Below are positions 9,170 through 38,010 of a stretch of DNA of 38,010 bases, in pieces. Position numbers and translations under genes: made by a program. This DNA is from Clostridiales bacterium (lineage in GTDB: Bacteria; Bacillota; Clostridia; UBA1381), in NCBI GenBank assembly GCA_029226975.1, contig JAQXZB010000053.1, forward strand, positions 1-38,010. Reading direction: 5' to 3'. Numbering within the stretch: the stretch's first letter is position 1; every line of letters begins with the position of its first letter. The notes beneath the pieces are model-generated. The model saw only the letters and a program-made list of their open reading frames with translations, ran no database searches and was not told the DNA's origin.

Positions 9170-9232
9170 AACATTCACCCTATGCATTATTAACCAAATC
9201 GATAATTGAAACAGTGTATTTATCCCATAAGC

Positions 9233-10132: not shown

Positions 10133-10150
10133 TCTAATTTCCACACTCCT

Positions 10151-11110: not shown

Positions 11111-11138
11111 AAAATCTATCCTTTCGTTATGATGTTTC

Positions 11139-11175: not shown

Positions 11176-11186
11176 ATCATTTCATG

Positions 11187-12860: not shown

Positions 12861-12873
12861 ATACTTGCCTTCC

Positions 12874-13911
12874 TTACTCATTATTGCTGTTGATGAATAC
12901 CGCGCCTTGAATGCTGTCATAATTAACCTGTGCACCCAGCATTTCAGAAACAAATCTAATCGGTACCATTGTCCGTTCGTTAATAATCTGTATGGGAACA
13001 TCACATATATACTCCTCATCATTAACGGTTACAACGCTGCTGCCTATGGGCATAATCATCAGCTTTCCGTTTCCGATTACATACACAGACCTGTTTTCCT
13101 CGTTCCATGCCACATCAGCATCCAAAAGCTCAAATATTTTACGCATGGGGACAAGAACTCTGTCCTCAACGATTGTGGGATTTACATCATCAAATATAAC
13201 CTTATAACTGTTTACTGAGATTTTCAGCACATCTTTTCCGTTCCACTTTTTATATGCGTCCCCAAGCTTCAGCTTTATGTTTCCGTAGCTTGTGCTGTTT
13301 ACATAACACTCGGTGGAATCCGACTGCCATGTGACGCATGATACTCTCTGCCCTTTATCATTTGCGTCATTTACCTGGACATCAAAGCCTATAACCAAAT
13401 CATCGGCGGGCAATATATCATGCCAACAGCATTTGAGCTCCACACTGTATGTTCCGTCATCGTTTGTTTTTGCCACGCCTTCAAAGTCGCTGGGTGCTGA
13501 AATACCGTTACTGTGTGACCCGCTCGCCGAAACACGATATTGCTTATCGTTGTTATCGTTTATCGTACTCTTTGAGTTGTCCTCATCGATAAATACTTCC
13601 ACACTGTCCTTCTGCCACTCCTCCGCTCCGACAATCGAAAGGGTCTTTTCGTCAACGAGTGCATAAACATACAATGCTTCATAGTCCCATGCCAGCCATA
13701 CATTGGCTCTGCTGCCGTCTGCAATAGTGCAGTTTGCCTCAAGCATATGATTTACATGCATAGGCTCTCCCGTATAAATGCTGTCCTTCTCACCGTCGAG
13801 AACCGGTGTGCCGTAAAACACCTCCGGTATCTCTGTACTCGTTTCGGCACTTGCCCATGTCCAACCGGCAAAAAAGCAGGCAAGCACCAATATACCAATA
13901 ATTTTTTTCAT
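12874..13911 (-). CDS. Secreted CBM9 protein with copper-amine-oxidase-like domain
   Basis: Secreted non-catalytic protein, 345 residues. Signal peptide 1-22 (cut near ASA-E). CBM9-like domain at about 30-218: GTPVLDGEKDSIY, VWLAWDYEALYVYALVDEKT, DSVEVFIDEDNSK and YRVSASG follow the family 9 pattern known from xylanases, where it binds reducing ends of xylan or cellulose. CuAO-N1-like domain at about 232-342, with the paired hairpins RVLVPMRKIFELLDADVAWN and RTMVPIRFVSEMLGAQVNYD; in Gram-positive secreted proteins this domain is a non-enzymatic, possibly wall- or polymer-associated module. ATG 13911 has AGGAGAAG upstream; a longer frame to 14004 runs through a structured spacer and is rejected. 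It ends 13 bases before the importer lipoprotein. It probably keeps xylan or released ends near the cell. Confidence 0.85.
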   Translation of the reverse strand: MKKIIGILVLACFFAGWTWASAETSTEIPEVFYGTPVLDGEKDSIYTGEPMHVNHMLEANCTIADGSRANVWLAWDYEALYVYALVDEKTLSIVGAEEWQKDSVEVFIDEDNSKSTINDNNDKQYRVSASGSHSNGISAPSDFEGVAKTNDDGTYSVELKCCWHDILPADDLVIGFDVQVNDANDKGQRVSCVTWQSDSTECYVNSTSYGNIKLKLGDAYKKWNGKDVLKISVNSYKVIFDDVNPTIVEDRVLVPMRKIFELLDADVAWNEENRSVYVIGNGKLMIMPIGSSVVTVNDEEYICDVPIQIINERTMVPIRFVSEMLGAQVNYDSIQGAVFINSNNE

Positions 13912-22236: not shown

Positions 22237-24852
22237 TTAGTCTCTTTCCGCCTCGGCAAAGCCGCTGCCGCCCGTTCCGCTGGCAATATTTATCATATTT
22301 CTCGCATCGCTGAACGAAGCGTCAAATCCCATCATCTTACATATATCCATTATCGGAACATATGTCTTTTGGTCTTTGATTATTATGTCATTATTCATTG
22401 TGTAGGGCTTAAAACCTCTGATTTGTGCCTTTCCCTCGCCAAACTCCATGTATGAGTCGGCTATTATTGCGGCATATTTATCTTTGCTTTTTACAAATCT
22501 CACACCGATACTGTCAAACAGCTTCTCTATTTCACAATAGGTTGTATCGCCGTTTTCAAACATCTCACCGTCTTCAAATTCAAGCTGTACACCGTCTACA
22601 GCCACTCTTGTAACCGATGTATCCTCTTTAAGACAATTGTTGTAATAATATTTCTCATCCACAATTGCCCAATACAAAGGCTTTGCCTGATAGTCTCTGT
22701 CAAACAGACCGGGGAAATCCACATGACCGAAGCCTAAGTTATTGAGGTGTGTCTGCGAGTCAAAGAATGACCAGAAGGTCACCCGGTCGATTTTGTCCGA
22801 ATACTCTTTGAATATGTTAAACATTTCACGAGCCAGCTCTGCCTGAGCAAACTCAACCTCCTTAGGCAAGCCGTAATCATAAAGTGCCTTTTTCTCCGCT
22901 GTCTGCTTTGTTGTATATGCGGATATATCAAACTCTGTTATATCAAAATCCACACCCAACGAAGCATATTTCTCAAATGCTGCCCTCATCTGCGACGGCA
23001 CCACATCGACCGAAAGATGGGACTGTATACCCAAAGTGTCAACTCGGCAGCCCGAATCGAGCAGGTTCTTCATAAGTATGTATACGGCGTCTCTTTTACC
23101 GCTGCGGTAATTCTCAAAATCGTTATATCTCAGCTTGACATCGTCATATCCCACTTCATCGGCAAACTGAAATGCGTAGTTTACATATTCCTTGCCCAAA
23201 ATGTTGAAAAATCCGCTGGCGTGTCTGTAGTTTTCATTTCCCTCAACCACGGCTTCATTGACTACATCCCACACAGGTATATGCCAGTCCGAATAATCCA
23301 CGCCCGGCTGATATTCGGACGGATCTCCGTCACCCTCATAATGCTTCATTACCTTTGTTATATATTCCTTCATGAAGGCAAGCAAGCTGTCGCGGTCAAT
23401 ATAGTTTCCGTTTTCATCAAGCGTATACGGTTTTGTCATGCTCAGCTCCCATATGAGGTTATGACCTACAACATCATCAATTCCGTTCTTCTGTGCAAAT
23501 TCCATCAGCCAATCACCGTTGCTGAAATCATAATCGGTTCTGTTTCCCTTGGTCAGTATTAACGGCATTTTGAAATATCCGTTTGAAACGACGGAATTAA
23601 AATGCTTTGTTACCAACTGGTTGAGACGAGTTTCGTTTGCACCCATTTCAGCTCCTCTGTAGCCGTAAAGATTTGCACCTATTTTAAAATAGTCTTTAAA
23701 CACATCCTTAAGGCTTGGTATGTCCTGCTGTACATCCTTGACAAATGCGCTTACGGCAACAGGGGTATCGGAAAGAGAGGGATCTCTGTCTGCCGGATTA
23801 TAATCCATATCATCGTAAAATTCACCCGGCTTATCACCCGACACAACCAAATCATCTACCCAATATTCCGCAAAGTTAGTATCTCCTATGGAAATCTGAA
23901 ATCCCACATAACCCTTTACATCATACTGGGAAACATCTATCGTTCCTTCAAGATAGTGCCATTCATCGTCCGTAACCGTCAGATACCCTGATACATACGG
24001 CCATACCTTGCCGCCCACCGCATCAATATCAGCCTGTACCCTAAAATCACAGCTTGCCAAGCTCGGACTTTTCTTCACCCAACAGGAAACCTTTATTTTA
24101 CATTCGGGATCTACTCCGTTTAAATATACTCGGCACGCCTCCCATGATTGATCTCTGTCATAGCAGTGCATTGAATATTTTCCCGTATGAGCCTTTACTT
24201 TATCCGTAATTTCAAACAAGCATCCCGAAGAAAGATTGAACATTTCAAAGGTTCCCGTTTCAAATGACGCTCTTTTTAACAGGTTTCCGTCATACTTTAT
24301 TTCGGGGACCGGCAACACCGCCGACTCAGCGGTGTTTTTGCTTGAAGTCACCTTAAAGTCATCAAGGAGAAATCCAACCTGCTTTCCTCCTTTTTCCGCG
24401 GATATTCCTATTACAATATCGCCGTCTGTATTGATCAGTCGTGTATTGATATGTCCCGAAATCTTTGCATAAGTGTTGTTCGACACCGGCTTGCTGTCAA
24501 GAGTGTATGCACTCTCTTTTCCGTTTGCCGTAACATATGCAATCATTTTAAATGTGACGTCGCTCTCCTCAGGCTTTACCCATACCGAAATATCCGTTTC
24601 TGCTTTTTGCTGCAAACTGCTAAGTGCCGTACGCAGAACCGTTCCCTTTTCGTCCGGTGTTATCCTAAGTGCATGCTCACTGCTTCTGCCTCCCTCTGCA
24701 ACCTCTGTCTTGAGATTTACATCCATATCATTTCCGTTTTCAAATGTCAAATCATAGATAGTATAAGGCGCATCGGCAGCAGCCCACACCGCATTTGCGT
24801 TTACACTGCACAGCATTGCAGCAGCCAAAATACCTCCGATAAGTTTACGCAT
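22237..24852 (-). CDS. GH10 xylanase with N-terminal CBM22-like and C-terminal CuAO-like modules
   Basis: Secreted endo-xylanase of 871 residues. Signal peptide 1-25; a beta-sandwich at about 28-170 (YDLTFENGND to LLDDFKVTS); a CBM22/4-like module at about 186-340 (RASFETGTFEMF to YWVDDLVVSG); GH10 barrel at about 378-735; CuAO-N1-like domain at about 745-858. Catalytic Glu533 (WDVVNEA) and nucleophile Glu640 (DITEFD) are intact, with His464 (GHNLIW) and His612 (QSH). As in the giant xylanase, the -2 subsite motif is altered (NGYFK, 424-428, for ENxMK) and the motif after HNLIW is Glu469 rather than His. ATG 24852 overlaps the preceding stop by one base (TAATG) with GAGGGTG upstream, indicating tight coupling to the DUF4340 gene. 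Confidence 0.93.
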   Translation of the reverse strand: MRKLIGGILAAAMLCSVNANAVWAAADAPYTIYDLTFENGNDMDVNLKTEVAEGGRSSEHALRITPDEKGTVLRTALSSLQQKAETDISVWVKPEESDVTFKMIAYVTANGKESAYTLDSKPVSNNTYAKISGHINTRLINTDGDIVIGISAEKGGKQVGFLLDDFKVTSSKNTAESAVLPVPEIKYDGNLLKRASFETGTFEMFNLSSGCLFEITDKVKAHTGKYSMHCYDRDQSWEACRVYLNGVDPECKIKVSCWVKKSPSLASCDFRVQADIDAVGGKVWPYVSGYLTVTDDEWHYLEGTIDVSQYDVKGYVGFQISIGDTNFAEYWVDDLVVSGDKPGEFYDDMDYNPADRDPSLSDTPVAVSAFVKDVQQDIPSLKDVFKDYFKIGANLYGYRGAEMGANETRLNQLVTKHFNSVVSNGYFKMPLILTKGNRTDYDFSNGDWLMEFAQKNGIDDVVGHNLIWELSMTKPYTLDENGNYIDRDSLLAFMKEYITKVMKHYEGDGDPSEYQPGVDYSDWHIPVWDVVNEAVVEGNENYRHASGFFNILGKEYVNYAFQFADEVGYDDVKLRYNDFENYRSGKRDAVYILMKNLLDSGCRVDTLGIQSHLSVDVVPSQMRAAFEKYASLGVDFDITEFDISAYTTKQTAEKKALYDYGLPKEVEFAQAELAREMFNIFKEYSDKIDRVTFWSFFDSQTHLNNLGFGHVDFPGLFDRDYQAKPLYWAIVDEKYYYNNCLKEDTSVTRVAVDGVQLEFEDGEMFENGDTTYCEIEKLFDSIGVRFVKSKDKYAAIIADSYMEFGEGKAQIRGFKPYTMNNDIIIKDQKTYVPIMDICKMMGFDASFSDARNMINIASGTGGSGFAEAERD

Positions 24853-25745
24853 TAAAACACACCCTCTCTGTATAATTTAATAAATTTAAAATAGTCGTTT
24901 GAAGTACGGTAAATTTCGTCACTGCCGTCAAGCATTATATAAACTCCGTTTTCCGTTTCATTTCCCATGATTATCTTATAATAATCATCCCTGCCGCAGG
25001 CCGCAACCGTTACGATTTCACTGTCGGCATTAAAGCCGTATTTTTCTTTGTTCTCATCAGTGGCCGCTATTACCTCCAGCGAATACATTCCGCCCATATA
25101 CCGCGTCACTCCCGACTTGACCTTTTCAGTCGGTACATCCGTTACGGTATCGCCGCAGACAAATCTCCAGGACCTCTGCTCCTTAGACAGGGAAAATGCC
25201 TTCTCCCCGCTCACCGTAATACTGTCTATACTGTCATAGTCAACTCCCAATATGAAGCTGTCCTCTGCCATATACCGTTTGCTTTTCATCTTATCTCCCA
25301 CATCTGTGTATACGGTGTATATATTGTCATGGCTGTCTGCAAGGTAGTATTCAGTCCCCGGAGGCGTTTTATCTCCCAAGCAAAATATTATGCTGTCTCC
25401 GTCCGTTGTCATATAAGTAACAACCGCCGACGGATTTAAAAGTCCGTATTTATCATCAGACACCCCTTGCCCAATCAGCTTACCGCTGAAATTCAGCAAT
25501 GTATCCATTATGTTTGTAACAGCATAATCGGCAGTTTTTTCACTGTCCTTTACTCTCCAGCCGTTATCATTGACAGCCGTCCATTCCTCAGAGCTGTTTT
25601 TAAATGTAATGCTTTTTATATCCTCTGCCTTAAAGTCGGCCAAATCAACCCGTTCTTCCTGCGATTTTTCCGGTAATGACAATATAATTGCCGCCGCCGA
25701 AAAAACCAATAATATGGCCGATAATACCGTTATTCTCTTTCTCAA
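24852..25745 (-). CDS. DUF4340 protein, partner of the Gld-type ABC system
   Basis: Membrane-anchored extracytoplasmic protein, 297 residues, with one N-terminal helix (ITVLSAILLVFSAAAIILSL). The segment KYGLLNPSAVVTYMTTDGDS followed by LGDKTPPGTEYYL is the hallmark repeat of DUF4340 (Y-G-L-x-x-P and G-x-x-x-P-x-G-x-x-Y-Y), a domain found next to GldG-like permeases; its biochemical role is unknown. It starts at TTG 25745 behind GGAGG, overlapping the upstream stop as TTGA. The gene is the third of a compact trio with the ATPase and the permease/GldG fusion, and runs straight into a xylanase gene. Confidence 0.8.
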   Translation of the reverse strand: MRKRITVLSAILLVFSAAAIILSLPEKSQEERVDLADFKAEDIKSITFKNSSEEWTAVNDNGWRVKDSEKTADYAVTNIMDTLLNFSGKLIGQGVSDDKYGLLNPSAVVTYMTTDGDSIIFCLGDKTPPGTEYYLADSHDNIYTVYTDVGDKMKSKRYMAEDSFILGVDYDSIDSITVSGEKAFSLSKEQRSWRFVCGDTVTDVPTEKVKSGVTRYMGGMYSLEVIAATDENKEKYGFNADSEIVTVAACGRDDYYKIIMGNETENGVYIMLDGSDEIYRTSNDYFKFIKLYREGVF

Positions 25746-27814
25746 CGATTATGCCTCCTTTTGTATACAACATATGCTGCAACAAATGCCATGAGAGGAA
25801 TAAGTATGCAAAACACCAGAATAAGTACAATTTGCCCTCCAAGCGCAATATTTAAACTCCGGCTCATAATGCTCTTAGGTGCTATGACAATATTATCCCG
25901 ATAGTTCATCAGATACTTTATATTCTTTATGAAAAATTCCTTATTGCAATAATTATAAGCGGAAAGTATGTCTCCGAGGCTGTCATCCTGCGGCACAATA
26001 AATTGTGTGGATGCGGCCGCAAATACCGCTGATTTGCTGCGTGTATTTTCCGATATGGCGGCTACGGTAAATTCGCCCGTACCAAGCTTATCTCCGAGTG
26101 AATCCTCATTTAAAACTCTTGACGCCGTTTTCTTATCGGTTACGGCAAGCTTAGTAATATTGCATCCCTCTTGTCCGGTTAAATTCAGTGAGCTTGATAC
26201 CGGGAATATTAAGTTCCTTGTCCCTGCCAAATCACCGGTTATGTCATTTTGTGCCGGATATGTCATGAGATACAGTCTGTTATTCTGAATTATTTCAGAC
26301 ATATCATCAACTGTCAATGCATCATCATTTATCTCCAGTCCGTAATTGTGCATAATCTTATTGAGATTTTCATGCTCGTATCCCGGATCAATCGCCGCAA
26401 ACAGCTTTCCTCCCTTTGAAAGATAACTGCATATGCTTTCATATTCTCTGTCACTTATATCCTTGACAGGTCCGAATATGATAACCGTATCTGCATCTCC
26501 TTTATATTCATCAAAGGTTTCGGCATATTCCACCAGGATATTTTCGCTTTTTAATACCGATGCCGGCGCTGCAAACCTTATTTCTCCGTGGCCGGTAAGA
26601 CAAAGTGCTGTGTGAGCCTTATCCTGAAGTACATAATCAATGGCTCCGGTCAGCTTTGTTTCCAGACTAAATCCCAGTTCTCTGGACACCTTTCCGTTCT
26701 CATCACGATTTATAAAAAACGCACTGCCCGGATCTACAACCGTAAATCTTTTACTGCTCTCTACTATCACAGAGCCCTTATTTATCACTTCACCGTTACT
26801 TGTGTATTTTGTTGTAAAAGAAGGATTTTTTATAATATCAACATTGCTTATATGTATTTTTGAGTTTTTTCTATTATATCTTCCCAAAACCTCTGCGGTA
26901 TAAGGGCTTTCCCGACCCGCCTCTGTGAGGTAATAAATATCAATATCATCTTTGAGTGACTCAAGATAATTCTCGGTTTCCTCCGAAAGCTCAAAAATTC
27001 CGTTCTTTGACATATCGAATGTCATTTTTACTTTATTTGAAATCTTTCCCACACAATAGTTAAACAGTAAAAAGCTTGCCGCCACGCAAATCGTGGTAAT
27101 AAGAATATATATCTTTCCCTCTTTTTTTACTTCAACTCTTTCAATATACACCACTGTCAGAAATATAAATACCGCCGAAAGGCTCAACAAATATATACAT
27201 GCCTTAACATCAAATATTCCTGCAAGGAAATTACTGTAAAATGATGTGAGTGCCAGTAAATGCAAAATAGAATTTGAGCTTACATCAAGTATCCAGTCCG
27301 AAAGATAAAGCAGAAAGCAGGCGCATAATGAAATAACCGCCGCAACTATCTGATTATCCGTCAATGCCGATACAAACACGCCAACTGCTATAAACACCGC
27401 ACCGAGGAGCAGGAACCCTGTATATACGGTAACGATTTCACCGAATGTCTGTCCTTTTAAAAATACCATCACCCATGAGGACAATGAATTTATCACCACT
27501 GCAATCGCAAAGACACCAACCGCCGCAAGATATTTGCCCAGAACAATTTCCCATTTTTTCAGCGGTACCGAGAAAAGCAGCTTTTCCGTACCGTTTTTCT
27601 TCTCGCCCGCAAACAGACCCATCGTCAGTACCGGAATAATCAGAACAAAGGAAACAACCGTATTATCCAACATTACTCCCACATCGGCGTTTGCGCCCAT
27701 CACGTTATATGACGCAAAGAAAAATCCCGATATCAGCAGGAACACTCCGATAAAAATATATCCTCTTACCGTAAAGAAATAGCTTTTTAATTCCTTTTCA
27801 ATAACCGTTTCCAA
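25742..27814 (-). CDS. ABC-2 permease fused to GldG-like extracytoplasmic domain
   Basis: Integral membrane protein of 690 residues combining two functions that gliding bacteria split between GldF and GldG. Residues 1-240 form an ABC-2 type permease with about six helices (MGLFAGEKKNGTEKLLFSVPL is the family's cytoplasmic loop). Residues about 265-650 are a GldG-like ABC_transp_aux region (KNGIFELSEETENYLESL, IDIYYLTE, TALCLTGHGE, LFAAIDPG), followed by a last helix (about 662-684) and a basic tail. The start is TTG 27814 behind GGGAGGCGG. It overlaps the ATPase gene by 28 bases and the DUF4340 gene by 4, so all three are surely co-translated. The substrate is unknown; export or envelope remodelling is plausible. 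Confidence 0.85.
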   Translation of the reverse strand: METVIEKELKSYFFTVRGYIFIGVFLLISGFFFASYNVMGANADVGVMLDNTVVSFVLIIPVLTMGLFAGEKKNGTEKLLFSVPLKKWEIVLGKYLAAVGVFAIAVVINSLSSWVMVFLKGQTFGEIVTVYTGFLLLGAVFIAVGVFVSALTDNQIVAAVISLCACFLLYLSDWILDVSSNSILHLLALTSFYSNFLAGIFDVKACIYLLSLSAVFIFLTVVYIERVEVKKEGKIYILITTICVAASFLLFNYCVGKISNKVKMTFDMSKNGIFELSEETENYLESLKDDIDIYYLTEAGRESPYTAEVLGRYNRKNSKIHISNVDIIKNPSFTTKYTSNGEVINKGSVIVESSKRFTVVDPGSAFFINRDENGKVSRELGFSLETKLTGAIDYVLQDKAHTALCLTGHGEIRFAAPASVLKSENILVEYAETFDEYKGDADTVIIFGPVKDISDREYESICSYLSKGGKLFAAIDPGYEHENLNKIMHNYGLEINDDALTVDDMSEIIQNNRLYLMTYPAQNDITGDLAGTRNLIFPVSSSLNLTGQEGCNITKLAVTDKKTASRVLNEDSLGDKLGTGEFTVAAISENTRSKSAVFAAASTQFIVPQDDSLGDILSAYNYCNKEFFIKNIKYLMNYRDNIVIAPKSIMSRSLNIALGGQIVLILVFCILIPLMAFVAAYVVYKRRHNR

Positions 27815-28722
27815 GATTGCCGCCTCCCTTCGTCATTTGCCGTTGCGTTTATAAACTCCTGTTCTACATCCACACGGTACAGCTTCAGTTCACGAATGGG
27901 CATTTTCATATCAGCAAGCTTATAGAATATTTGGTCAATGGAATTTTCTTCTGCCTCGACAATATATTTATCATTCTTTCTGATTACACTGCCAACTCCC
28001 GGAACGGACATTAAACCATTCTTAATCTCTTTTTCGCTCCCTGCAATATCATATAGATACACATTCTTTTTTACATCAACATCTTCAATATTCTTTACAA
28101 TTTTCCCGTTATCGATTATTATAACTCTGTTGCAAACATAGGAGATTTCCGATAAAATGTGTGAGCTCAGAAGTATTCCACAGTTTTTGCTCATTTCCTT
28201 AATCAGCTTAAGGGTTTGCTTTTTCTGCAGCGGATCCAGTCCTACAGTCGGTTCATCCAGTATTACATATTTGGGAAAGCCTATAAATGCCTGTGCCAAA
28301 CCTACTCTTTGCATATATCCCTTTGAAAGATTGCCTATCACACGATTTTTAACTTCCGAAAGTCCGAATGATGAAATGATTTCTTCTATATGCTCATCTG
28401 ACTTGCTTTTTGCCTTTTTTAATTTTGCAACAGTCTTTAGATACTCATATACAGTCAATTCCCTATATACAGGCGGCTGTTCCGGAAGATATCCGAACAT
28501 TTTCTTCAATGCAACCGGATCCGCACTCATGTCTATGCCGTCTGCACCTATCCGCCCCGATGTAGGTGCAAGGCAGCCCGTAATCATATTCATGGTTGTC
28601 GATTTGCCTGCACCGTTAGGGCCTATAAAGCCTACAATCTCCCCTTCGCCTATACACAGAGATATATCATCTACACCTCTTACTTTGCCGTAATTTTTTG
28701 TTAAAGACTTTACTTCAAGCAT
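27787..28722 (-). CDS. ABC transporter ATPase (GldA/CcmA type)
   Basis: ATP-binding subunit of 311 residues. Walker A GPNGAGKSTT, Q-loop YLPEQPPVY, signature LSKGYMQRV, Walker B YVILDEPTVGLDP and switch His in LLSSHILSE are intact. The C-terminal extension of about 90 residues fits ATPases paired with ABC-2 permeases. The gene opens 4 bases after the stop of the SLH protein gene, with GGAGAA upstream of ATG 28722, and overlaps the permease gene. It therefore drives the adjacent GldG-fused permease, not the sugar importer further along, whose permeases are of another class. Confidence 0.93.
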   Translation of the reverse strand: MLEVKSLTKNYGKVRGVDDISLCIGEGEIVGFIGPNGAGKSTTMNMITGCLAPTSGRIGADGIDMSADPVALKKMFGYLPEQPPVYRELTVYEYLKTVAKLKKAKSKSDEHIEEIISSFGLSEVKNRVIGNLSKGYMQRVGLAQAFIGFPKYVILDEPTVGLDPLQKKQTLKLIKEMSKNCGILLSSHILSEISYVCNRVIIIDNGKIVKNIEDVDVKKNVYLYDIAGSEKEIKNGLMSVPGVGSVIRKNDKYIVEAEENSIDQIFYKLADMKMPIRELKLYRVDVEQEFINATANDEGRRQSWKRLLKRN

Positions 28723-28725
28723 AAC

Positions 28726-31431
28726 TTAATTCTCCGAGGGATATATAGCTACAACCAAATACTGATTGTAGTTTGCAATGTATGCTTTTGATGCGCTTGT
28801 ACCGGCAATCTTGGAGCATACTGCGTCATCAATGGTACCTACTCTGTACTGATTTATATCGGTATCCCATACATAAACCGTACCCCATATGCATCTTACC
28901 GCTTCAACATGATACCAATCGTTTAAATAGTCCGAATAATTTACAAACAGCTGATTATCCTTAACATCATATACCGTTCCGAATTTTACTCTTTGATTTC
29001 CACCGGTTACGGTATGTGTCGGTGTGCTGTTCTTGAACTGATCTGCGTTCGTATACGGTACAAGCCCCGTATCTGTGTAGTCACAGAGCATCTTCCAGCC
29101 ATAGCCGTAATGATTTTCTCCTGACACTGTATCGTCCCGTATTACATATTGATTGTTAGCGTCAGTATAGAAGAATACCAAATCGCCTTTTCCGAAAGGA
29201 AGCGCTGCACTTGTATCCGTTCTCTTGTCCACAACAAATATTTCCTGCTCCACTCCATTCGTTAAGCCTTGTACAAGGTAGCCCTCTTCGCCGTTATCGT
29301 TTATTGCGACAATAACATTGTTTATCGCAAAGGGTCTTTGACCTGAGGTGTTAATCAATCCGTATGTATCCTTTACGGTTATAAGTGCGACATCTGCTAT
29401 TCCGGGAATACCGCTTACGGAATACGCCGATATTCCGTAATAGCTGCCATCGCCCAGAACACTTGTCGACGCCACACCTATACATTCCTCAGGTCTGGTT
29501 TCATCCGTCATTTCAGCCGGCTTTATGAAAAGCTTACAAGTTCCCGGTATCTGAACAATCGGGTCAGCACCCGTTCCAAATACATATCCTCCCGGATAAT
29601 ATTTGTACACGGCATTGGAGTTAGTGTAAATCATCTGAAAATCCTCATCCATAGGCGTATTCTGCGTGTCCTCCGGAATTTCATTGGAGAAGAAAAGCTC
29701 CGTTATTTCGCCTTGAATATTCATGCGATATTTAATTATTCCGCCCAAGTAATCGGAAAGGTTTGAAATTGTCTTTGATTTTATGCTTTCGCCGCCGATC
29801 TTTACCTTATCGGCTAATTCAAATTTTTCCCATGTTCCACCCTGATCCAGCAGCTTTATTATAGGCTTCTCAATATCACAGCCGTTATTGGGATAAAATG
29901 CCTGCAAGTATGCCACACGATATGCAAGAGCATCGTTTTCTTCATCGTCATCACCAAAATATACTGCTCTTCCCGTCGAGTCAAGATATATTGCACATTC
30001 GGTATTTAATTGAACGTCATTTTCTCCCTTTGCCCTAAGCTCGGTAAATCTTGATGTCAGTTCAATCTCACCCTCTGAGGTTACAATGCTGTTATCAGTG
30101 ATTGACGTTATCATTGCAGTTATATTCTTATCTGAAATGGTTATTCTGTAATATGGATCATCCGATATTGACTTTTCCACTTCCAAAACATTTCCGACTG
30201 TAATGTTCTTTAAATCCTTACGGTTTCCGTCTGTATCACATATGATATAATTTCTGTTTATACCGGTTGTAAGCTCTATGTTGTATGTGCCGTCAAACTT
30301 GTCATAAATATTGAATTTATCGCCGTATTCATTTGTTCTATCTGCAACCAGGAGCTTTTTATCTCTTATTTTTAAAACCTCATATTTTCCGTCATCGTCA
30401 TTGTCAATAAGCTCAATGCTTCCGGTTTGAGGAACATATACCTTGCTGTCGATAATATTTGCGCCGTTATAAATAACAATTACATCACTATCCAAGAACA
30501 GTCTTTTCGCTTTACTGCCTTCATGGTACGAATAAACTCCACTGCTGTAAGAATCAATATCATTTGCATCTATTTTGAGCACCTTGTCTTTATACGGCAC
30601 TGCACACAAAAGGGTCTTTCCCGTATCGTCATCACGATACCAGTATTCCATATTATAGCCGAGGGTATCTGTTACAGCTGTGTTTCCCAATTCGTATACA
30701 TCCGAACCGATCATAATTCTTCCCAACGGCGTCCTTGCGGATATACTGTACAATCCGCTTACTTCATCGGCATTAACCAAATCTCTGTTCATATATATCT
30801 TTCGGTATTTGCTAAGCAGAGTATCATCTGAAGTTTCTAATTTGATATTGTCCCCCGATATGCTTGATACACCTATAGTCTTTGTATTTATAATGTTATA
30901 CAATAAGTTTATGAATTTTTCATATTGAAGCTCTTCACTTTTGACCATGCCCACATTTTTGAGCATGTCCAGCTTATCGGCAACATACATATATCCTTCC
31001 GGATAGCCTCCGTTTATCTCTGCAATTTTTTTATATCCGAGCATATCAACCGCAATTTTAACCGCTTCAGACAGCTTTATCGGAGACTGAGGATAAAAGT
31101 TTTCCTGATTGTAACCATCTATAAATCCTCTTTCGTAAAGCCAACGCATCCCTTTGTCATTTGCCGTCAAATCAAACTCCATTACACCCTTAGGCAGGCT
31201 TTCATTCTCAAGCATCGCCATTGAGTCGGCAAACTCTGTTCTTTTAACCACCGATGTTAAATCAATCTCACCGCTTTTATTCAATAATCCCAAGGATGTA
31301 AGAATTTCTGCTTTATCATCGAATGTCAGCTTCGAATGGTCAACCTCTTCTGCAATTACAGGTGCAGTCAAAAGGGCTGCCAAAATACAAACCGATAAAA
31401 TGCCGGTACATAATTTTTTTAATAATCCCAC
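28726..31431 (-). CDS. Large secreted protein with N-terminal SLH-like repeats
   Basis: Secreted protein of 901 residues starting at GTG 31431 behind AAGGAGG. Signal peptide 1-27 (APVIA-E). Residues about 32-190 hold three degenerate SLH-like units (KAEILTSLGLL, KGMRWLYERGFIDGYNQENFYPQSPIKLSEAVKIAVDMLG, and ADKLDMLKNVGMVKSEELQYEKFINLLYNI). The rest (about 200-900) is beta-rich with repeated short DxDG-type segments (DNDDGKYEVLKIRDKKLLV, SDKNITAMITSITDN), no catalytic motif recognised. Similar SLH-beta proteins are widespread and uncharacterised in Clostridia. SLH units usually bind pyruvylated wall polymer, so this is probably an S-layer-associated surface protein. Only 12 bases from the upstream SLH gene and 3 from the ATPase. 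Confidence 0.75.
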   Translation of the reverse strand: MGLLKKLCTGILSVCILAALLTAPVIAEEVDHSKLTFDDKAEILTSLGLLNKSGEIDLTSVVKRTEFADSMAMLENESLPKGVMEFDLTANDKGMRWLYERGFIDGYNQENFYPQSPIKLSEAVKIAVDMLGYKKIAEINGGYPEGYMYVADKLDMLKNVGMVKSEELQYEKFINLLYNIINTKTIGVSSISGDNIKLETSDDTLLSKYRKIYMNRDLVNADEVSGLYSISARTPLGRIMIGSDVYELGNTAVTDTLGYNMEYWYRDDDTGKTLLCAVPYKDKVLKIDANDIDSYSSGVYSYHEGSKAKRLFLDSDVIVIYNGANIIDSKVYVPQTGSIELIDNDDDGKYEVLKIRDKKLLVADRTNEYGDKFNIYDKFDGTYNIELTTGINRNYIICDTDGNRKDLKNITVGNVLEVEKSISDDPYYRITISDKNITAMITSITDNSIVTSEGEIELTSRFTELRAKGENDVQLNTECAIYLDSTGRAVYFGDDDEENDALAYRVAYLQAFYPNNGCDIEKPIIKLLDQGGTWEKFELADKVKIGGESIKSKTISNLSDYLGGIIKYRMNIQGEITELFFSNEIPEDTQNTPMDEDFQMIYTNSNAVYKYYPGGYVFGTGADPIVQIPGTCKLFIKPAEMTDETRPEECIGVASTSVLGDGSYYGISAYSVSGIPGIADVALITVKDTYGLINTSGQRPFAINNVIVAINDNGEEGYLVQGLTNGVEQEIFVVDKRTDTSAALPFGKGDLVFFYTDANNQYVIRDDTVSGENHYGYGWKMLCDYTDTGLVPYTNADQFKNSTPTHTVTGGNQRVKFGTVYDVKDNQLFVNYSDYLNDWYHVEAVRCIWGTVYVWDTDINQYRVGTIDDAVCSKIAGTSASKAYIANYNQYLVVAIYPSEN

Positions 31432-31443
31432 GACTAATCCTCC

Positions 31444-33942
31444 TTATTTACTGATTTCATAAAGCATTTTGGCTACCTCTGCTCTTGTGGCATAACCCTT
31501 AGGTCTGAAGCTTCCGTCCTCATAACCGTTTATTACACCTCTTTTTTTCATAATGCTGACTGCATTCTTGGCATAGTCAGCCACCTCATCAATATCGGTA
31601 AAGCTTGCTGCTTCAGCATCTTCCTCCGGCTTTAAAATATTGGCTAATATTACGCATATATCCTGTCTTGTGATTTCAGCATTACTGCCAAACTCCGTTT
31701 GTGAAACTCCGTTTACAATTCCGTTTGCGTAAAGTGCCGCAACATACGGATAATACCAATCACTTTCCTTAACATCATTTAATGAAAGTATTTCTCCGTT
31801 TTGGGTTATACCGAACAAAACCGATACCATCTTTGCAAATTCCGCTCTTGTTATATTGTTGTGCGGATTATATCTGTTATCATCAGCTTTTGATATTACG
31901 CCTTTTTCTGCAAGTGCATAAATACTTTCCTGTGCCCATTCGACACTGTCAATATCATTAAATCTAAATTCTTTTGTTTTATTTTCATCCGGCGGAACTG
32001 TATATGAATTAAATTCCCCCTTGCCGCCGGAGCCACCCGAACCGCCCGAACTGCCGGAGCCACCCGAACCGCCCGCGCCGCCGGTATTACTGTTGCCGGC
32101 ACTCGCAACAAGGCTGTCAAGTCTCGCCTGCAAGGTTGAATAATCCGTCACATTCTTAATCCCGTTCATCAGACTTGTTGTAACATTATACTGCTTATCC
32201 GATGACAGCTTCGAATACCCGTCAAAATCCAGATTGAGTGCCTCTGCATATTTCTGAATAACTGCCATCTGCTGTGCCGCAGTTACTTTTGTATTAACCT
32301 CGCACCGTACAATCGTTTCGGTCAGTGCATACTCGAATGTGTCAAAATCTTTGAGTTTCGCAGGCGACTGCTCAAACATTGTGTTCAAAGATGTCTTATC
32401 TGCATTTTGGTATAGGTCTTTGTATGCCTCTATTGAATTCACATTCAAAATATCAGCGTACTCGTCAACAATATCTGTAAGCTTCTTAACTCTCCTGTCA
32501 AGCACATCATAGCAGGCTGCTGTTTTTATCGCATCCATGAGCTGTTTTCCGTCCGATATATCCTTTGCCGCAAGATAATTAAAAATTTTATTCTTGTCCG
32601 CAGATATAACAACCGGGATTGCAGAAACTCCCATATCATCCAAAACATTCTGAGTCAAAACATCCGAAACAGCGGCTGCAGTTGTACAAGCATTAACCGA
32701 GGCTGCTATTGCGTCCAATTCAGCCGTATTAGTTACATAGAAATCTGTGCTGAGTACATTGCCGACATCATTATATCCGCTCATACCGCTTACCTCGGCT
32801 CTCACAAGCTTGCGTATACCGGTAAAGGCCGGTATCTCCTGTGATATTGTGTATGCACCGTCTGAATTTGTCCGTACATTAAATGTTCCTATATCCGAAA
32901 CAGAAATGCTTATTGACTTATTCTCATTCCCGCTCTTTAATTGTCCGCTGATTGTGACAGCATTATCAGCTTGGGAAACATTCATAAAGTAATTCATGTC
33001 AACAATCTCGACATTCTTCAATGTTACCGTTGCATCACTGTCTGCCACAACATCGATTTGGGTATGTATCATATCATCTGTTGACTTTGAAGCATCAAAT
33101 ACAAGGACTGCATTCACCTCTTCGCCCTTTTTCAAAACATACTCGCTGTGTGCACCGGATACAGACGGGCAATTGAATATCAGATATGCCGAATTTGCAT
33201 CTGTTGAAACAGTACCCACAAGTGCATATTTTCCTGCACCGTAGCTGTTCTTATCGCTTTGGCAATAAATTCCGCCCGATTTGCCGCCGTTTACGGCAAA
33301 ACTCATGGTGTTGTTGCTGATGCTGATGTTTTCACTTCCCCGGGGCTTCCACATTGAAGTGCCCGCTATAGCTTCCTTACATGAAACCTCATCAATGAAA
33401 ACACTTTTTCCCTCATCTATATCATAAAATCCCATTCTGATTTTTACATTGTTAAAATCCTCGTCCGGAGTGAATGCATATGACGGTTGATTCCAATTAT
33501 CGGCACTAACCGTAAATTCTTCCGAGCTTTCCAACAGCTTCCCGTCTGAAAACACCATAAATCTCATTTTCACATTCTTATTCTTTGGATATACATTTGC
33601 CGAAATTGTATATTTTTTTCCGCTTTCCATAGAAAATGATTTCTTATTGTACACGCCTTGATATGCAAATCCGTCGCTTGCGGGGCTTATGCTTGATTCC
33701 GTTCCCAAATCCTCTCCCGGCAAGAACTCCAGCGCATAGTTTCCGTCACTTGCTATTTCCTTTGTCACATATAAAGACGGCAATGCCGTATCCTGTCTGC
33801 CGCTGTAACAAATCCCGAATTCATTTATGCCGTTTTCAAATCCCCCGTTCTCAATAGCATCTCCGGCAGATGCCGCACACATAAACGATGTCGAAAACAT
33901 AAAAAAAGCACTCAGAAAAATTGTAGTATTTATTTTTTTCAT
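31444..33942 (-). CDS. Surface protein: CBM-like N-terminus, Gly/Ser linker, three SLH domains
   Basis: First gene of the large array, 832 residues. Signal peptide 1-26; a CBM4/9-like sandwich at about 31-187 (IENGGFENGINEF to VFIDEVSC); a second beta domain at 195-315; an Ig-like unit at 325-405; a helical stretch at 405-612; a Gly/Ser linker at about 620-643; three C-terminal SLH domains at about 660-832 (each with ITRAEFAKM, ITRQDICVI or ATRAEVAKM). This suits a cell-wall-anchored carbohydrate-binding protein, and it is the only protein here with three full SLH units. ATG 33942 begins the signal sequence; GTG 33951 is an alternative. Oddly, the best ribosome binding site (AGAAAGGAG, 33991-33999) is about 50 bases upstream, and TAACATA/TATGTTA arms could loop out part of the gap. 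Confidence 0.88.
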   Translation of the reverse strand: MKKINTTIFLSAFFMFSTSFMCAASAGDAIENGGFENGINEFGICYSGRQDTALPSLYVTKEIASDGNYALEFLPGEDLGTESSISPASDGFAYQGVYNKKSFSMESGKKYTISANVYPKNKNVKMRFMVFSDGKLLESSEEFTVSADNWNQPSYAFTPDEDFNNVKIRMGFYDIDEGKSVFIDEVSCKEAIAGTSMWKPRGSENISISNNTMSFAVNGGKSGGIYCQSDKNSYGAGKYALVGTVSTDANSAYLIFNCPSVSGAHSEYVLKKGEEVNAVLVFDASKSTDDMIHTQIDVVADSDATVTLKNVEIVDMNYFMNVSQADNAVTISGQLKSGNENKSISISVSDIGTFNVRTNSDGAYTISQEIPAFTGIRKLVRAEVSGMSGYNDVGNVLSTDFYVTNTAELDAIAASVNACTTAAAVSDVLTQNVLDDMGVSAIPVVISADKNKIFNYLAAKDISDGKQLMDAIKTAACYDVLDRRVKKLTDIVDEYADILNVNSIEAYKDLYQNADKTSLNTMFEQSPAKLKDFDTFEYALTETIVRCEVNTKVTAAQQMAVIQKYAEALNLDFDGYSKLSSDKQYNVTTSLMNGIKNVTDYSTLQARLDSLVASAGNSNTGGAGGSGGSGSSGGSGGSGGKGEFNSYTVPPDENKTKEFRFNDIDSVEWAQESIYALAEKGVISKADDNRYNPHNNITRAEFAKMVSVLFGITQNGEILSLNDVKESDWYYPYVAALYANGIVNGVSQTEFGSNAEITRQDICVILANILKPEEDAEAASFTDIDEVADYAKNAVSIMKKRGVINGYEDGSFRPKGYATRAEVAKMLYEISK

Positions 33943-34003
33943 GCTGTTCACTATAACATAACTGCATTTAAAAAAATAGCTATGTTAAATCTCCTTTCTG
34001 CAC

Positions 34004-34089
34004 ACATTGCTGATTTTATGTCCTAATTATACCTGTTTTTTCCTAAAAAATCACTATAATTTGGAGCACACTCCACTCGAATTTTGAGC
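34004..34089 (-). promoter_or_regulatory. Promoter, tandem operator and leader block for the large array
   Basis: On the minus strand: -10 TATAAT (34031-34026), a weak -35 (GTGATT, 34054-34049, 17-base spacing), and two 16-base direct repeats, GCTCAAAATTCGAGTG (34089-34074) and GCTCCAAATTATAGTG (34067-34052), 13 of 16 alike and 22 bases apart. The nearer one overlaps the -35, the geometry of AraC-type activator sites. Just after the -10 lies a 17-base block CATAAAATCAGCAATGT (34020-34004), identical to one in the second module. The start of transcription should be near 34020. Confidence 0.7.
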
Positions 34090-34131
34090 AATGCTGCTTC
34101 TCTGTATTCATCAATAAATAATGCAATCCTA

Positions 34132-34172
34132 AAAAGGGAGCGCAGCAACTATGTCTTGCTGTGCTCCCTTTT
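34132..34172. terminator. Strong intrinsic terminator after the DUF4091 gene
   Basis: A 17-base stem, AAAAGGGAGCGCAGCAA (34132-34148) against TTGCTGTGCTCCCTTTT (34156-34172), closed but for one G-T wobble, with a 7-base loop. On the minus strand it ends in a T-run, 49 bases after the stop of the DUF4091 gene, isolating that gene from the promoter of the large array. Confidence 0.9.
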
Positions 34173-34220
34173 CAAGTCTGTATTTAAGAATGAAATTGCT
34201 CTATATTAACTAAGTTATTT

Positions 34221-35888
34221 TTAATATTGCTTTTTTCCCAATACTTCCTCTATCTTGTTGTTTATTTTTTCTCTTATTTGTGCTACACCTCTATCGGTTC
34301 TCGGATATTCATTAAAGCTTTTAACTCCGCTTTCATCTATTATCGCATCAACCCCGGCCTTGCCGATATAGCTTTCCAAAAGCTTGCACGCTCTTATATC
34401 CTGCAATGCCTCATAAAATACCACACTGCGTATTGACTCTATAGGACCGTCCTCGGCGGGATATACGCAAAAGGCATCGCCGGAGGGAAAAGCTTCATCC
34501 GCGTCTGTTACCAAAAACGGATTTATTGCACGCTTTGAAAGCTGTGAATAGTAGAAATTATATCCCCACTGCAAGAATCCGTTTATGCCGTACTTATAAA
34601 GCTGCATTCCGGTGACTCTGTTTCTCCCCGACGGCATGGCGATAAAACGGTTGCTGTAGCCTTCCCCCGCAGGGCAGCAGCAGTAATATGCCCATATATC
34701 ATTTATTCCCCGCTCAAAGAAGCTGTCAACAGACGACGTAACCACAACCGGATTGTTCATGAGTCCACATTCACAAAACTCATAATGGGACATGGCATCC
34801 ATTATTTTTTCATCAGGTACCAATCCCTTAAGTATTTCCCGCTCGGTTTTGTAACATTCGTAATGCCATTTATAATCCGGTTCATCCGAAACATGGAAGT
34901 ATGTATCATCATACACACACTCCGCCTTCAGAAAATCCATGAGCTGCGGAATAAATGCCTTGAGGAATGAACGATACTCAGGAGTATCCGCCTTGACATG
35001 CCATCCGAAAAGCTTCTTCTTTCCTTCATTTGTCTGTGCCTCAATCTTGGGAGTACAGCCGGTACCCCATTGTGTAAACAGATGTGATATTTCAAATTTC
35101 TTTATACCGTTCTCCTTGCATATTTTTATCCACCGTTTTAATTTATCAAATCCGAAGCTGTAAATACCGTTATCATACCGCACATCAACCAACTGCACCG
35201 TAGGTCGTTCTCCTCCCACTTCGGTGTCAAGAGGCGGCGTGAATACAGGAGTCAGTATCATATTGATTCCGATATATGCCGCCATCTTTATAAACTTTTC
35301 AATCATTGCCCAATGCTGCTTCGAAAATACCTCTTGATTATAGTAGCTTGCTATGCAGTCGGCGTGGAACCACTGGGTGTATGTAAGCTCTTGTTCGGGC
35401 AGACAAGCGTCAAGTACCTTTACTGTAAAAGTCTTTTTCTGCTCCTCCTCACCATACACAAGAACAAGCTCAACCGGATATTCTCCCGCCGGCATATCCT
35501 TAGGTATAATCACCGTCACAAATAAAGAGTGGGATTTGTCTTGAATTACCTCAAAGGTGTTATCCTTTATCGGATACAGAATATCGGGAAAAAGTCCCGG
35601 CTCCTTTGATATATAATAATCATCGTTATCCCTTGTATATGCCGGCAGGGCACATGGTACATTCTCTACCCTTCTGAACTGTACCGTCAGTCGGCTATCG
35701 GCATTTACCGAAAACCTAACCGTAGTTTTGCGGCTGTCTTCCCCTTCCTTTTTATAAAGTATCTGGTATGAAACTCTTTCACCTTTAAGCGCACTTATAC
35801 CCCGAACTTCATCTTGTTTGGTATAATTGCTCGTCAGCAAAATCTTTTCCAAAGATGATAATTGCAAAAATGTAAATTCTTTACCCAT
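34221..35888 (-). CDS. DUF4091 / GH123-like putative glycoside hydrolase, cytoplasmic
   Basis: Protein of 555 residues without signal peptide. An N-terminal beta domain (about 10-160, ending in YPVELVLVYGEEEQKKTFTVKVLD) is followed by a barrel containing TYTQWFHADCIASYY, FEISHLFTQWG and the diagnostic FHVSDEPD (Asp335-Glu336). In GH123-type enzymes an adjacent Asp-Glu pair at this point does substrate-assisted cleavage of N-acetyl-galactosaminides; DUF4091 relatives are mostly untested. Later WAYYCCCPAGEGYSNR and GFLQWGYNFYYSQ line the putative active site. It is probably a glycosidase acting on imported material, but the substrate is unclear. AGGAGAG precedes ATG 35888. It has its own copy of the promoter module and its own terminator. 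Confidence 0.8.
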   Translation of the reverse strand: MGKEFTFLQLSSLEKILLTSNYTKQDEVRGISALKGERVSYQILYKKEGEDSRKTTVRFSVNADSRLTVQFRRVENVPCALPAYTRDNDDYYISKEPGLFPDILYPIKDNTFEVIQDKSHSLFVTVIIPKDMPAGEYPVELVLVYGEEEQKKTFTVKVLDACLPEQELTYTQWFHADCIASYYNQEVFSKQHWAMIEKFIKMAAYIGINMILTPVFTPPLDTEVGGERPTVQLVDVRYDNGIYSFGFDKLKRWIKICKENGIKKFEISHLFTQWGTGCTPKIEAQTNEGKKKLFGWHVKADTPEYRSFLKAFIPQLMDFLKAECVYDDTYFHVSDEPDYKWHYECYKTEREILKGLVPDEKIMDAMSHYEFCECGLMNNPVVVTSSVDSFFERGINDIWAYYCCCPAGEGYSNRFIAMPSGRNRVTGMQLYKYGINGFLQWGYNFYYSQLSKRAINPFLVTDADEAFPSGDAFCVYPAEDGPIESIRSVVFYEALQDIRACKLLESYIGKAGVDAIIDESGVKSFNEYPRTDRGVAQIREKINNKIEEVLGKKQY

Positions 35889-35924
35889 AAATTTCTCTCC
35901 TATATGATATTATTCTATCTACAT

Positions 35925-36012
35925 ACATTGCTGATTTTATGACTTACATTATACCCGTTTTCTCCGAAAAAAACCACTATGATTTAGAGTACAATTTACT
36001 CAAATTTCGAGC
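35925..36012 (-). promoter_or_regulatory. Second copy of the promoter/operator/leader module
   Basis: It matches the module at 34004-34089 along its length. On the minus strand: -10 TATAAT (35953-35948), weak -35 (TGGTTT, 35976-35971), direct repeats GCTCGAAATTTGAGTA (36012-35997) and ACTCTAAATCATAGTG (35990-35975), again 22 bases apart, and the identical 17-base leader block (35941-35925). It drives the DUF4091 gene with a leader of about 50 bases. The duplication points to a shared regulator for both units. Confidence 0.7.
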
Positions 36013-36033
36013 ATTTTTACTGCCCTTTCCAAA

Positions 36034-37263
36034 TCATATGTAATTTTTCAAATTAAACCCGGCAAGTCTTATATGCTTTCTTTCTACCGTATACGACATT
36101 GCAAGCTCCCCGTCTTTAAAATACTGAATAAAGGGATAGAAGCAGCTTGTGTGCATATGCGCCGAAAGCACAACAGTGCTGTCCTTAATATTTTCCGTAT
36201 CTATATGGATTATGCCGATATGCTCGCGGTCTATCGGCGCATGGAACAGATACAGCTCGCCGTTATAAACGATGAAATCCGACCTTGACTGACAGTCCTC
36301 CACAAGCACCGGGGTTTCCCATGTCTTGTTTATCAAATCATACACTGTCAAGAAACCGTACTTTGTTGACTCATCATGCTGTCTTACAAAATAATAGCAC
36401 TTATCCCCTAATACATATGTCGCATTTTCCCATTTGGAATCGTTTGCGAAATCGGGCTCGGAAACATACTCCCATGTTATAAGATCTCTGCTCTTTATAA
36501 TACAAGTGAAATCTCCGCTGTAGGCTCCTGTATAATGAACCTTCTCACCGTTCTCAATACGGACAGACAGCTTTTGCATAATTCCGATGTCGCTGTACAT
36601 TTTCTTAAATCCTATCTCGCTCTCGGCAAGAGCGCTTTTCATTCCGCTTATGCTAAAATCATTTACCACATCACCTACCTTAAATCTGTTTACCGAAATC
36701 TCTCCAAGCTCCTGTGTCGAGATCTTAAACGGACAATACAGTCTGTAATAATTGTAAGTATCCCCATCCGCCAGTTCGGCAGTCCATAAAATATATAATG
36801 TATCCTCATCCTTCTGCATCAAAACCGTATCATACAATGCATTGATGCGTCTGCCGCCAAAAACATCACCGGCAGACTGAATATCCACAAAGGTCTTATT
36901 TGCCAAATCGTTTACGGGACAATACACAAAACGCGCCGTATGATCATGCGGATCCTCCAAATCAGTCTTGTTATTTGCGTAATATGTCATATAAATTACG
37001 TCATTTATTACTGCAAATGTAGAAACATGAACCATAAAATCACGCTCTTTAACCTTTCCTTCTTCAAGAAGCACTTCGGATTTTTCAAAATCCGAAACAA
37101 ACCTCTCCTCAATTTCTGCGGCAAATTGTTCACCCTTGCGTTTTGCCTCATCGGATACATCTGACGAAATTATTTTCACAAACTCACCGATTTCCTTGTT
37201 TTCCACAACAACAGACTTTTTGTCCGTTGCGAAGTCATCAGAAAAAATGCTATTCTTTGTCAT
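36034..37263 (-). CDS. Sialidase/BNR-like beta-propeller protein, function unknown
   Basis: Soluble protein of 409 residues, no signal peptide. After a charged 80-residue N-terminus the sequence repeats short sheets of the kind VINDVIYMTYYANNK, DEDTLYILWTAEL, IKSRDLITWEYVSEP, VLGDKCYYFVRQHD and IVYNGELYLFHAPIDREHIG, spaced about 50-60 residues apart. This is the pattern of a five- or six-bladed propeller as in sialidase-like and GH43/GH130-like proteins (S-R-D-L-x-x-W-E is typical). The catalytic Arg triad of sialidases or acids of GH43 cannot be assigned with confidence, so no reaction is claimed. AGAAGGAG precedes ATG 37263, which overlaps the YgjV-like gene by 14 bases. No terminator was seen after it, so transcription may run into the DUF4091 module. 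Confidence 0.65.
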   Translation of the reverse strand: MTKNSIFSDDFATDKKSVVVENKEIGEFVKIISSDVSDEAKRKGEQFAAEIEERFVSDFEKSEVLLEEGKVKERDFMVHVSTFAVINDVIYMTYYANNKTDLEDPHDHTARFVYCPVNDLANKTFVDIQSAGDVFGGRRINALYDTVLMQKDEDTLYILWTAELADGDTYNYYRLYCPFKISTQELGEISVNRFKVGDVVNDFSISGMKSALAESEIGFKKMYSDIGIMQKLSVRIENGEKVHYTGAYSGDFTCIIKSRDLITWEYVSEPDFANDSKWENATYVLGDKCYYFVRQHDESTKYGFLTVYDLINKTWETPVLVEDCQSRSDFIVYNGELYLFHAPIDREHIGIIHIDTENIKDSTVVLSAHMHTSCFYPFIQYFKDGELAMSYTVERKHIRLAGFNLKNYI

Positions 37264-37771
37264 GACTTGTCACTCCTTCTTTAATAAAATATAAAAATAT
37301 AGAAAAAATTGCTATACTTTCATTAACCACTCCCACATATGATCCTACAAACAAATCATATATCAAAAACACAACCGATACCGGAACCGAAATGATTTTG
37401 GTAAGTTTCGGTTTGCGCAGCCAAAGCGACAACGTCACAAAAGTCGACGCCGCTATCGGCAAAATATTTATCGGTGCTTTAAAAGACCTTATTCCCAGTC
37501 CCCAGTTAAGTAAAATAAAGACAATCGGCCAAAACATAAAATTCGCCCATTTTTTTTGCTCTCTGTTTATAAACACAAGCTCACGGAATATACCCACAAA
37601 ATTAGGTATCATTCCTCCGTATGCGCCAAGACATAAATAGTGAGCCGTCCAAAACAAATCGGCACAGAGTTTTCCGGCAATAAGCTTTCGGCGCTCTGTC
37701 TGCTGATAAGACATAAACAGTGACGCCATGGCTCCCAATCCCAAAAGCTGCGCAATTATCTGCAGTTTCAT
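37250..37771 (-). CDS. YgjV-family inner membrane protein
   Basis: Small membrane protein of 173 residues with about five or six helices. MASLFMSYQQTERRKLIAGK, ADLFWTAHYLCLGAYGGMIPNFVGIFRELVF and the ending IYDLFVGSYVGVVNESIAIFSI fit the YgjV family (Q-x-x-x-R-x-x-L, H-Y-x-x-L-G-A-x-x-G, N-x-x-x-x-x-R), described in enterobacteria but of unknown function. A perfect GGAGG lies upstream of ATG 37771. The 14-base overlap with the propeller gene shows co-translation, so a shared task, such as uptake or export of a sugar-related metabolite, is conceivable but unproven. Confidence 0.8.
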   Translation of the reverse strand: MKLQIIAQLLGLGAMASLFMSYQQTERRKLIAGKLCADLFWTAHYLCLGAYGGMIPNFVGIFRELVFINREQKKWANFMFWPIVFILLNWGLGIRSFKAPINILPIAASTFVTLSLWLRKPKLTKIISVPVSVVFLIYDLFVGSYVGVVNESIAIFSIFLYFIKEGVTSHDKE

Positions 37772-37790
37772 ATTTACCTCCGTTTCTTGC

Positions 37791-37819
37791 TTGACATTTC
37801 ATGTTTTTTCTATTATAAT
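37791..37819 (+). promoter_or_regulatory. Consensus sigma-A promoter for the AraC-like gene
   Basis: TTGACA (37791-37796), a 17-base spacer, then TATAAT (37814-37819): a perfect housekeeping promoter on the plus strand, 85 bases before the start codon at 37905. A second TATAAT (37825-37830 with one base offset) lies 11 bases on. The strength suggests the regulator is made constitutively unless repressed. Confidence 0.8.
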
Positions 37820-37822
37820 AAT

Positions 37823-37851
37823 AGTATAATGGAAAGAATATCAAAAATCAA
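37823..37851 (-). promoter_or_regulatory. Promoter for the YgjV/propeller unit
   Basis: On the minus strand TTGATT (37851-37846), 17 bases, then TATACT (37828-37823), about 50 bases upstream of ATG 37771. The -10 lies four bases from the -10 of the opposite promoter, so the two RNA polymerase footprints must collide. Confidence 0.6.
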
Positions 37852-37904
37852 TGTCATATATAGGGTAAAAATAACACTATCTTGCAAAAGGAAAGGACAA
37901 TAAC

Positions 37905-38010
37905 AATGCTCGGAACACGTCATGAAGAATATGACAGTTATTTTAACAATCTGCCGTTCAGGCTCACAGCGGATATAGAGATAACAGCCTCCTCATACAG
38001 TCACGAAGCA
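37905..38010 (+). CDS. Putative AraC-family regulator, 5' end only
   Basis: The only plus-strand gene supported; 35 codons are visible. AGGAAAGGAC sits 8 bases before ATG 37905 and a consensus promoter lies upstream. The protein begins MLGTRHEEYDSYFNNLPFRL and continues TADIEITASSYSHEA, matching the start of AraC-type regulators with an N-terminal cupin (x-L-P-F-x-L ... D-I-x-x-x-x-x-x-x-H, then E-I). The DNA-binding domain is outside the window, so the family call rests on this short stretch and on position. It diverges from carbohydrate genes, so it is a candidate sugar-responsive regulator of this locus. Confidence 0.55.

Follow-up and report, generated by a model that had tools for sequence, protein, structure and literature searches.

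A duplicated promoter with tandem repeats before a GH123-like gene and an 18-gene array: a candidate local YesM/YesN regulon in a Clostridiales bacterium

Known targets of YesN-type regulators are transport and glycosidase genes linked to them. Class-II AraC activation geometry served here as the standard of comparison; at araI1-araI2 the sites lie in direct orientation with a 21-bp spacing, and araI2 overlaps the -35 element. These sites of E. coli araBAD are described as adjacent half-sites, of which the proximal araI2 recruits RNA polymerase (PMC4760080). Tandem repeats are taken as usual for AraC-type promoters (PMC7499043), the AraC/XylS family is said to have no consensus (PMC3572039), and conserved sites could not be found for a related two-component system, according to PMC12175519. 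For Caldicellulosiruptor bescii, tandem-repeat sites upstream of mapped promoters are reported for all four single-component (4/4) and for 3/5 two-component AraC-type regulators, and these regulators are probably activators (PMC8579813). XydR, an AraC-type response regulator of Clostridium cellulolyticum, is involved in the expression of a hemicellulase cluster, and its effector domain binds upstream DNA (PMC3572039).

The DNA analyzed here (hereafter the window, 38,010 nucleotides) is one whole contig of the 2.8-Mb assembly of a Clostridiales bacterium. A sequence-only reading of it had proposed that a DUF4091 gene and an 18-gene array are preceded by copies of the same promoter module, and the module is indeed present at both places. 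The local alignment of the two minus-strand regions has 80 of 99 columns identical with 2 one-base gaps, and its score is 97, whereas 1000 dinucleotide-shuffled pairs scored no more than 33. The elements of the two copies are as follows.

33994-34090, minus strand: promoter module before the 18-gene array (candidate operator pair, weak -35, -10, start of the leader)
34089-34075, minus strand: distal repeat GCTCAAAATTCGAGT of the array promoter, from a pattern scan
34067-34053, minus strand: proximal repeat GCTCCAAATTATAGT of the array promoter, touching the weak -35, from a pattern scan
34031-34026, minus strand: -10 hexamer TATAAT of the array promoter, a perfect match
35915-36013, minus strand: second copy of the promoter module, before the GH123/DUF4091 gene, from local alignment
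36012-35998, minus strand: distal repeat GCTCGAAATTTGAGT of the GH123 promoter, from a pattern scan
35990-35976, minus strand: proximal repeat ACTCTAAATCATAGT of the GH123 promoter, from a pattern scan
35953-35948, minus strand: -10 hexamer TATAAT of the GH123 promoter, a perfect match

Each copy consists, in this order, of two RCTCnAAATnnnAGT repeats, a poor -35, TATAAT and a leader beginning CATAAAATCAGCAATGT, and homology between the copies spans the whole promoter and the 5' leader. Since the copies are homologous as wholes, the four repeats represent one tandem pair copied once and not four independent operators. Thus, one promoter has been duplicated once and now stands before the GH123 gene and before the 18-gene array. 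The leader was considered as a second conserved element and rejected: its 17-base identical run is unremarkable under random placement of mismatches (P = 0.34), and the leaders fold no better than shuffles. Elsewhere in the genome, the leader sequence occurs only with 2 or more mismatches. At the start of the array's first gene (window 33940-33995, minus strand), a Shine-Dalgarno-like AAAGGAG lies some 40 bases ahead of the likely ATG (33942); a TAACATA/TATGTTA hairpin separates the two.

The two copies precede the following units, which are the putative targets of regulation, and a hairpin lies between them.

34221-35888, minus strand: GH123_cat (DUF4091-type) gene, first target (PF13320, E 5.2e-105)
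34128-34176, minus strand: intrinsic terminator-like hairpin between the GH123 gene and the array promoter, from folding
2737-33951, minus strand: 18-gene array, second target, from gene spacing and Pfam

The segment 34126-34182 folds at -31.5 kcal/mol (z -8.6; 0/200 shuffles as stable) and carries a U run. This strong predicted terminator supports separate promoters for the two units, and the array probably needs its own. Intergenic gaps within the array range from -149 to 89 bases, after which a gap of 245 bases follows. The array products include SLH proteins, an ABC exporter with a DUF4340 protein, two GH10 proteins, a CBM9 protein, a solute-binding protein, two permeases, YesM, YesN, a GH4 protein, a nucleoside hydrolase and a PfkB kinase. 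At 24852-33951 of the window, two SLH proteins are followed by the exporter (ATPase, fused ABC2/auxiliary protein, DUF4340), and this SLH/ABC exporter gene order is kept in a second genome, G008 (L079); together these proteins perhaps form a dedicated surface or secretion system for xylanases. The link to xylan comes from the GH10 domains only; the organism is a probable fibre degrader.

The two direct repeats of about 16 bases at 22-base spacing, as described in the sequence-only reading, occur in both promoters, where 22 bases is the distance from start to start and the gap between the repeats is 7 bases. Read from the sequence, CTC and AGT lie 11 bp apart within each repeat, and the repeat period is 22 bp. 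A weak -35 and a perfect -10 also characterize both regions, as had been claimed: the best -35 of the array promoter is GTGATT (3/6, spacer 17) or, likewise at 3/6, TAGTGA (spacer 19), that of the GH123 promoter is TGGTTT or GTGGTT (2/6), and the fit to TTGACA across both promoters is thus only 2-3/6 positions, with TATAAT in each. With the -10 set at -12 to -7, the end of the proximal repeat falls at about -34/-35, which agrees with its description as abutting the -35. The locus therefore shows two direct half-sites about 21-22 bp apart, the proximal one touching or overlapping a poor -35, and the repeats and promoter fit a class-II AraC-type activator operator. Of the proposed AraC-type activation layout, the geometry stood (11 bp, 22 bp, -34/-35), for what are candidate operators only, but conservation before an orthologous array did not, as set out below.

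The genome scan for the repeat pair at 22-base spacing, which the sequence-only reading had suggested, was run on the assembly. With up to 3 mismatches, the tandem pattern was found in these two promoters only (backwards control 0), and the single repeat RCTCNAAATNNNAGT has four exact matches in the 2.8 Mb, all in these promoters (backwards control 1). Within the window, the single repeat with 2 mismatches occurs at chance level (25 found vs 24 expected). Exactly two tandem and four single sites in a genome are the signature of a local regulator.

Two genes inside the array, together with a truncated gene at the contig end, were the candidates for such a regulator.

7472-9187, minus strand: YesM-type sensor histidine kinase (His_kinase PF06580, 3.5e-16; HAMP)
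5915-7456, minus strand: YesN-type response regulator with an AraC DNA-binding domain, the favoured candidate binder, from Pfam
37906-38010, plus strand: AraC-family regulator, first 35 codons, cut by the contig end, the disfavoured binder, assigned from its orthologues

YesN has a Response_reg domain (2.1e-26), a HTH_18 domain (6.3e-21, covering profile positions 1-79/80) and a phosphoacceptor region DIRMP with D55. At 5915-13022, a His_kinase/HAMP sensor adjoins a regulator with REC and AraC-HTH domains, as in a YesM/YesN pair, and the two are linked to the solute-binding protein and the two permeases. On this linkage the pair is a plausible candidate, and a better one than the 37906 AraC.

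We lean towards a model in which YesN, phosphorylated by YesM, activates the GH123 gene and the array through the duplicated promoter with its tandem half-sites. In this model, duplication of a promoter that carries two operator half-sites, arranged head to tail at a distance of two helical turns, would have put one copy in charge of the GH123-like gene and the other in charge of the 18-gene array; the repeats would be occupied by two subunits of an AraC-type activator, most probably phosphorylated YesN, and the proximal subunit would sit against the poor -35 and recruit RNA polymerase. Positive autoregulation would follow from the position of yesM and yesN within the array. The inducer would probably be a product of GH10 activity, imported by the neighbouring transporter, and the array would be read as one long transcript. 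Operator function, the identity of the binder and activation are what we infer from the arrangement of these elements.

The repeats could instead be operators of another AraC-type activator, either the 37906 protein or one encoded elsewhere in the genome. The YesN query gave 74 first-look candidates in this genome, so many regulators probably exist, but those encoded elsewhere have no linkage to the array. The 37906 gene lies 2 kb away and, although its 35-codon fragment by itself has no Pfam match, is AraC-family by its orthologues: its N-terminus resembles those of orthologues in the relatives G083 (89%) and G071 (83%), which at full length (279 and 271 aa, respectively) carry cupin and AraC HTH domains. 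It belongs to a separate conserved block of AraC, YgjV and a 409-aa protein, which recurs in both relatives; in G083, the 409-aa protein shows 92% and YgjV 97% identity, and the values for G071 are 79% and 84%, respectively. No tandem match with up to 3 mismatches was present in these two genomes (fragmented assemblies), and no such repeat occurs in the AraC/YgjV intergenic region, which is conserved in all three genomes; hence the operator was not found beside the close orthologues. The block stands on short contigs in G083 and G071 (4985 and 7768 bases), and neither contig has the GH123 gene or the array. So similar a regulator should keep its site, which makes the 37906 AraC an unlikely binder, and control by any activator other than YesN appears improbable. 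The two regulators offered by the sequence-only reading have thus fared differently: YesN is still plausible by linkage, whereas the 37906 AraC has its orthologues in operator-free genomes. As a separate observation, the 79-97% protein identity of the AraC/YgjV/409-aa block (window 36034-38010) in G083 and G071, which are other genera, is above that of array proteins in G008 (30-60%), which perhaps points to a recent transfer.

By itself, the tandem is only modestly unusual and weak evidence. The array-promoter pair matches at 12/15 positions at offset 22 (p = 0.03 over offsets 20-23, from shuffles); the GH123-promoter tandem alone is not significant (p = 0.37), and the best match there has a different offset of 21 bases. 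Both module copies keep the 20 core repeat bases. The matching positions of the two repeats comprise 24 bases in the array copy, and 22 of these are unchanged in the GH123 copy. This is not significantly better than at the other aligned columns (58/73, p = 0.14), also when only the part upstream of the -10 is compared (22/24 vs 25/35, p = 0.055); the pattern is suggestive of selection acting on the repeats. The absence of a significant conservation excess, the GH123 tandem's lack of significance, the spread of mismatches through the module and the unremarkable leader run would all be expected from a recent promoter duplication without a special operator, in which the repeats have no special role and time has been too short for much divergence. 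We consider this unlikely, given the array tandem's own significance, the retention of the core repeat bases in both copies and the placement of the repeats against a poor -35, as fits activation. Alternatively, each 15-mer may be read as an imperfect palindrome (CTC n7 GAG in the distal copies), so that two repressor dimers, two turns apart, would block the promoter. While the distal repeats fit the consensus on the other strand too, with 2 mismatches, the proximal repeats have no other-strand match within 2 mismatches, and the direct-repeat similarity is 12/15. Moreover, no LacI/DeoR/GntR-type domain was found among the window genes scanned, and the -35 is poor for a promoter needing only repression, which together make this reading very doubtful.

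Activation by YesN was further assessed at related loci. A contig of G008 (C40) carries the same gene series (SLH, ABC, DUF4340, GH10, CBM9, solute-binding protein, permeases, YesM, YesN). Upstream of this array, the repeats are absent, no significant tandem at 20-23 bases was found, and alignment with the window promoters is no better than with shuffles. Conservation of the operator before an orthologous operon, a supporting and not strictly defining feature, was thus not seen at the one orthologous array found. The result argues against a conserved YesN operator, but less strongly in view of the 45% identity of the YesN HTH regions of G008 and the window and of a broken yesN frame in G008. 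The absence of the repeats before orthologous operons, named in the sequence-only reading as an outcome that would speak against it, therefore applies in part. The G008 yesN orthologue (L118:10570-12113) is represented by two overlapping frames, which reflects either a pseudogene or an error of assembly. The solute-binding protein of the array has a close relative in 5/95 genomes of the order, the window's own included; among six fetched loci, only G056 C21 has further YesM/YesN-like genes, at 29-30% identity.

The motif is absent upstream of 18/18 GH123 homologues examined, drawn from 24 matches and including two own-genome paralogues; those left out were L006 (self) and L020 and L026-L029 (weak or partial). 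In 149 other genomes, the tandem pattern has no match at up to 2 mismatches, and at 3 mismatches the 21 matches compare with 29 for the reversed control, i.e. chance. Viral contigs gave 0 matches. A scan of the GTDB contig collection for exact matches to the tandem pattern, with the gap ahead of the second CTC set to 7-9 bases, retrieved 10 stretches, which were rejected, none resembling the promoter: 8 carry an unrelated repeat around CGCTC(G/A/T)AAATGACAGT (Bacteroidales and other MAGs), and 2 are from Pseudovibrio. The unrelated repeat, around TTCGCTCGAAATGACAGT, is tandem in several of these MAGs (L081-L086, L089, L090) and mimics the operator pattern. A noncoding tandem census of 21 loci (22,328 noncoding bases) had a cut of 13/15, below which the window's own pair (12/15) falls, and yielded five matches of at least 13/15, one of them at offset 22 (in G040), too few to show a class. 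The G040 match (C152, L091:2050-2130, minus strand; also L022) is a perfect 22-bp tandem of a GCTCAAAAAATTTTAGTGTGAT unit about 140 bases upstream of a GH123 homologue; it adjoins divergent sugar-permease-like genes, is equalled in 0/300 shuffles and occurs once in that genome. It starts GCTCAAAA, contains AGT and at first looked related, but the spacing inside the unit is off by 2 bp and the alignment extends over 9 bases only; its operator layout is similar, and it is retained as a lead.

Taken together, the arrangement probably represents a local two-promoter regulon activated by YesN, an ordinary kind of sugar regulation. More tentatively, it may be a private regulon, in which the array-embedded YesM/YesN switches on the array and a captured GH123-like gene, and whose operator is no longer recognizable when compared with the orthologous array of another genus, site and regulator co-evolving quickly. 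If the proposed control is correct, one regulator would be tied to one cluster in a probable fibre degrader, a compact operator sequence would be available for a YesN-type regulator, a group with few defined sites, and the GH123 gene would exemplify the entry of an enzyme gene into a regulon through promoter copying. The general picture of AraC-type control is unchanged.

Compared with araBAD, the spacing here is 22, and the candidate here is a phospho-response regulator, whereas AraC binds a sugar. Common to both are two adjacent half-sites, putative ones here, of which the proximal one at araBAD recruits RNA polymerase (PMC4760080). XydS/XydR of Clostridium (Ruminiclostridium) cellulolyticum likewise pairs a histidine kinase with an AraC-type response regulator, and controls the hemicellulase cluster to which it is linked as well as one other gene; XydR reportedly does not act on its own genes, unlike the loop proposed here, and the common elements listed for it differ (PMC3572039). 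A large exporter/SLH array and a duplicated promoter, both present here, are not described for the C. bescii systems in the part of PMC8579813 drawn on. The two-component AraC-type regulators of that species (e.g. BxgRS) share with the present locus tandem sites upstream of the promoter, near ABC transporters and glycosidases (PMC8579813).
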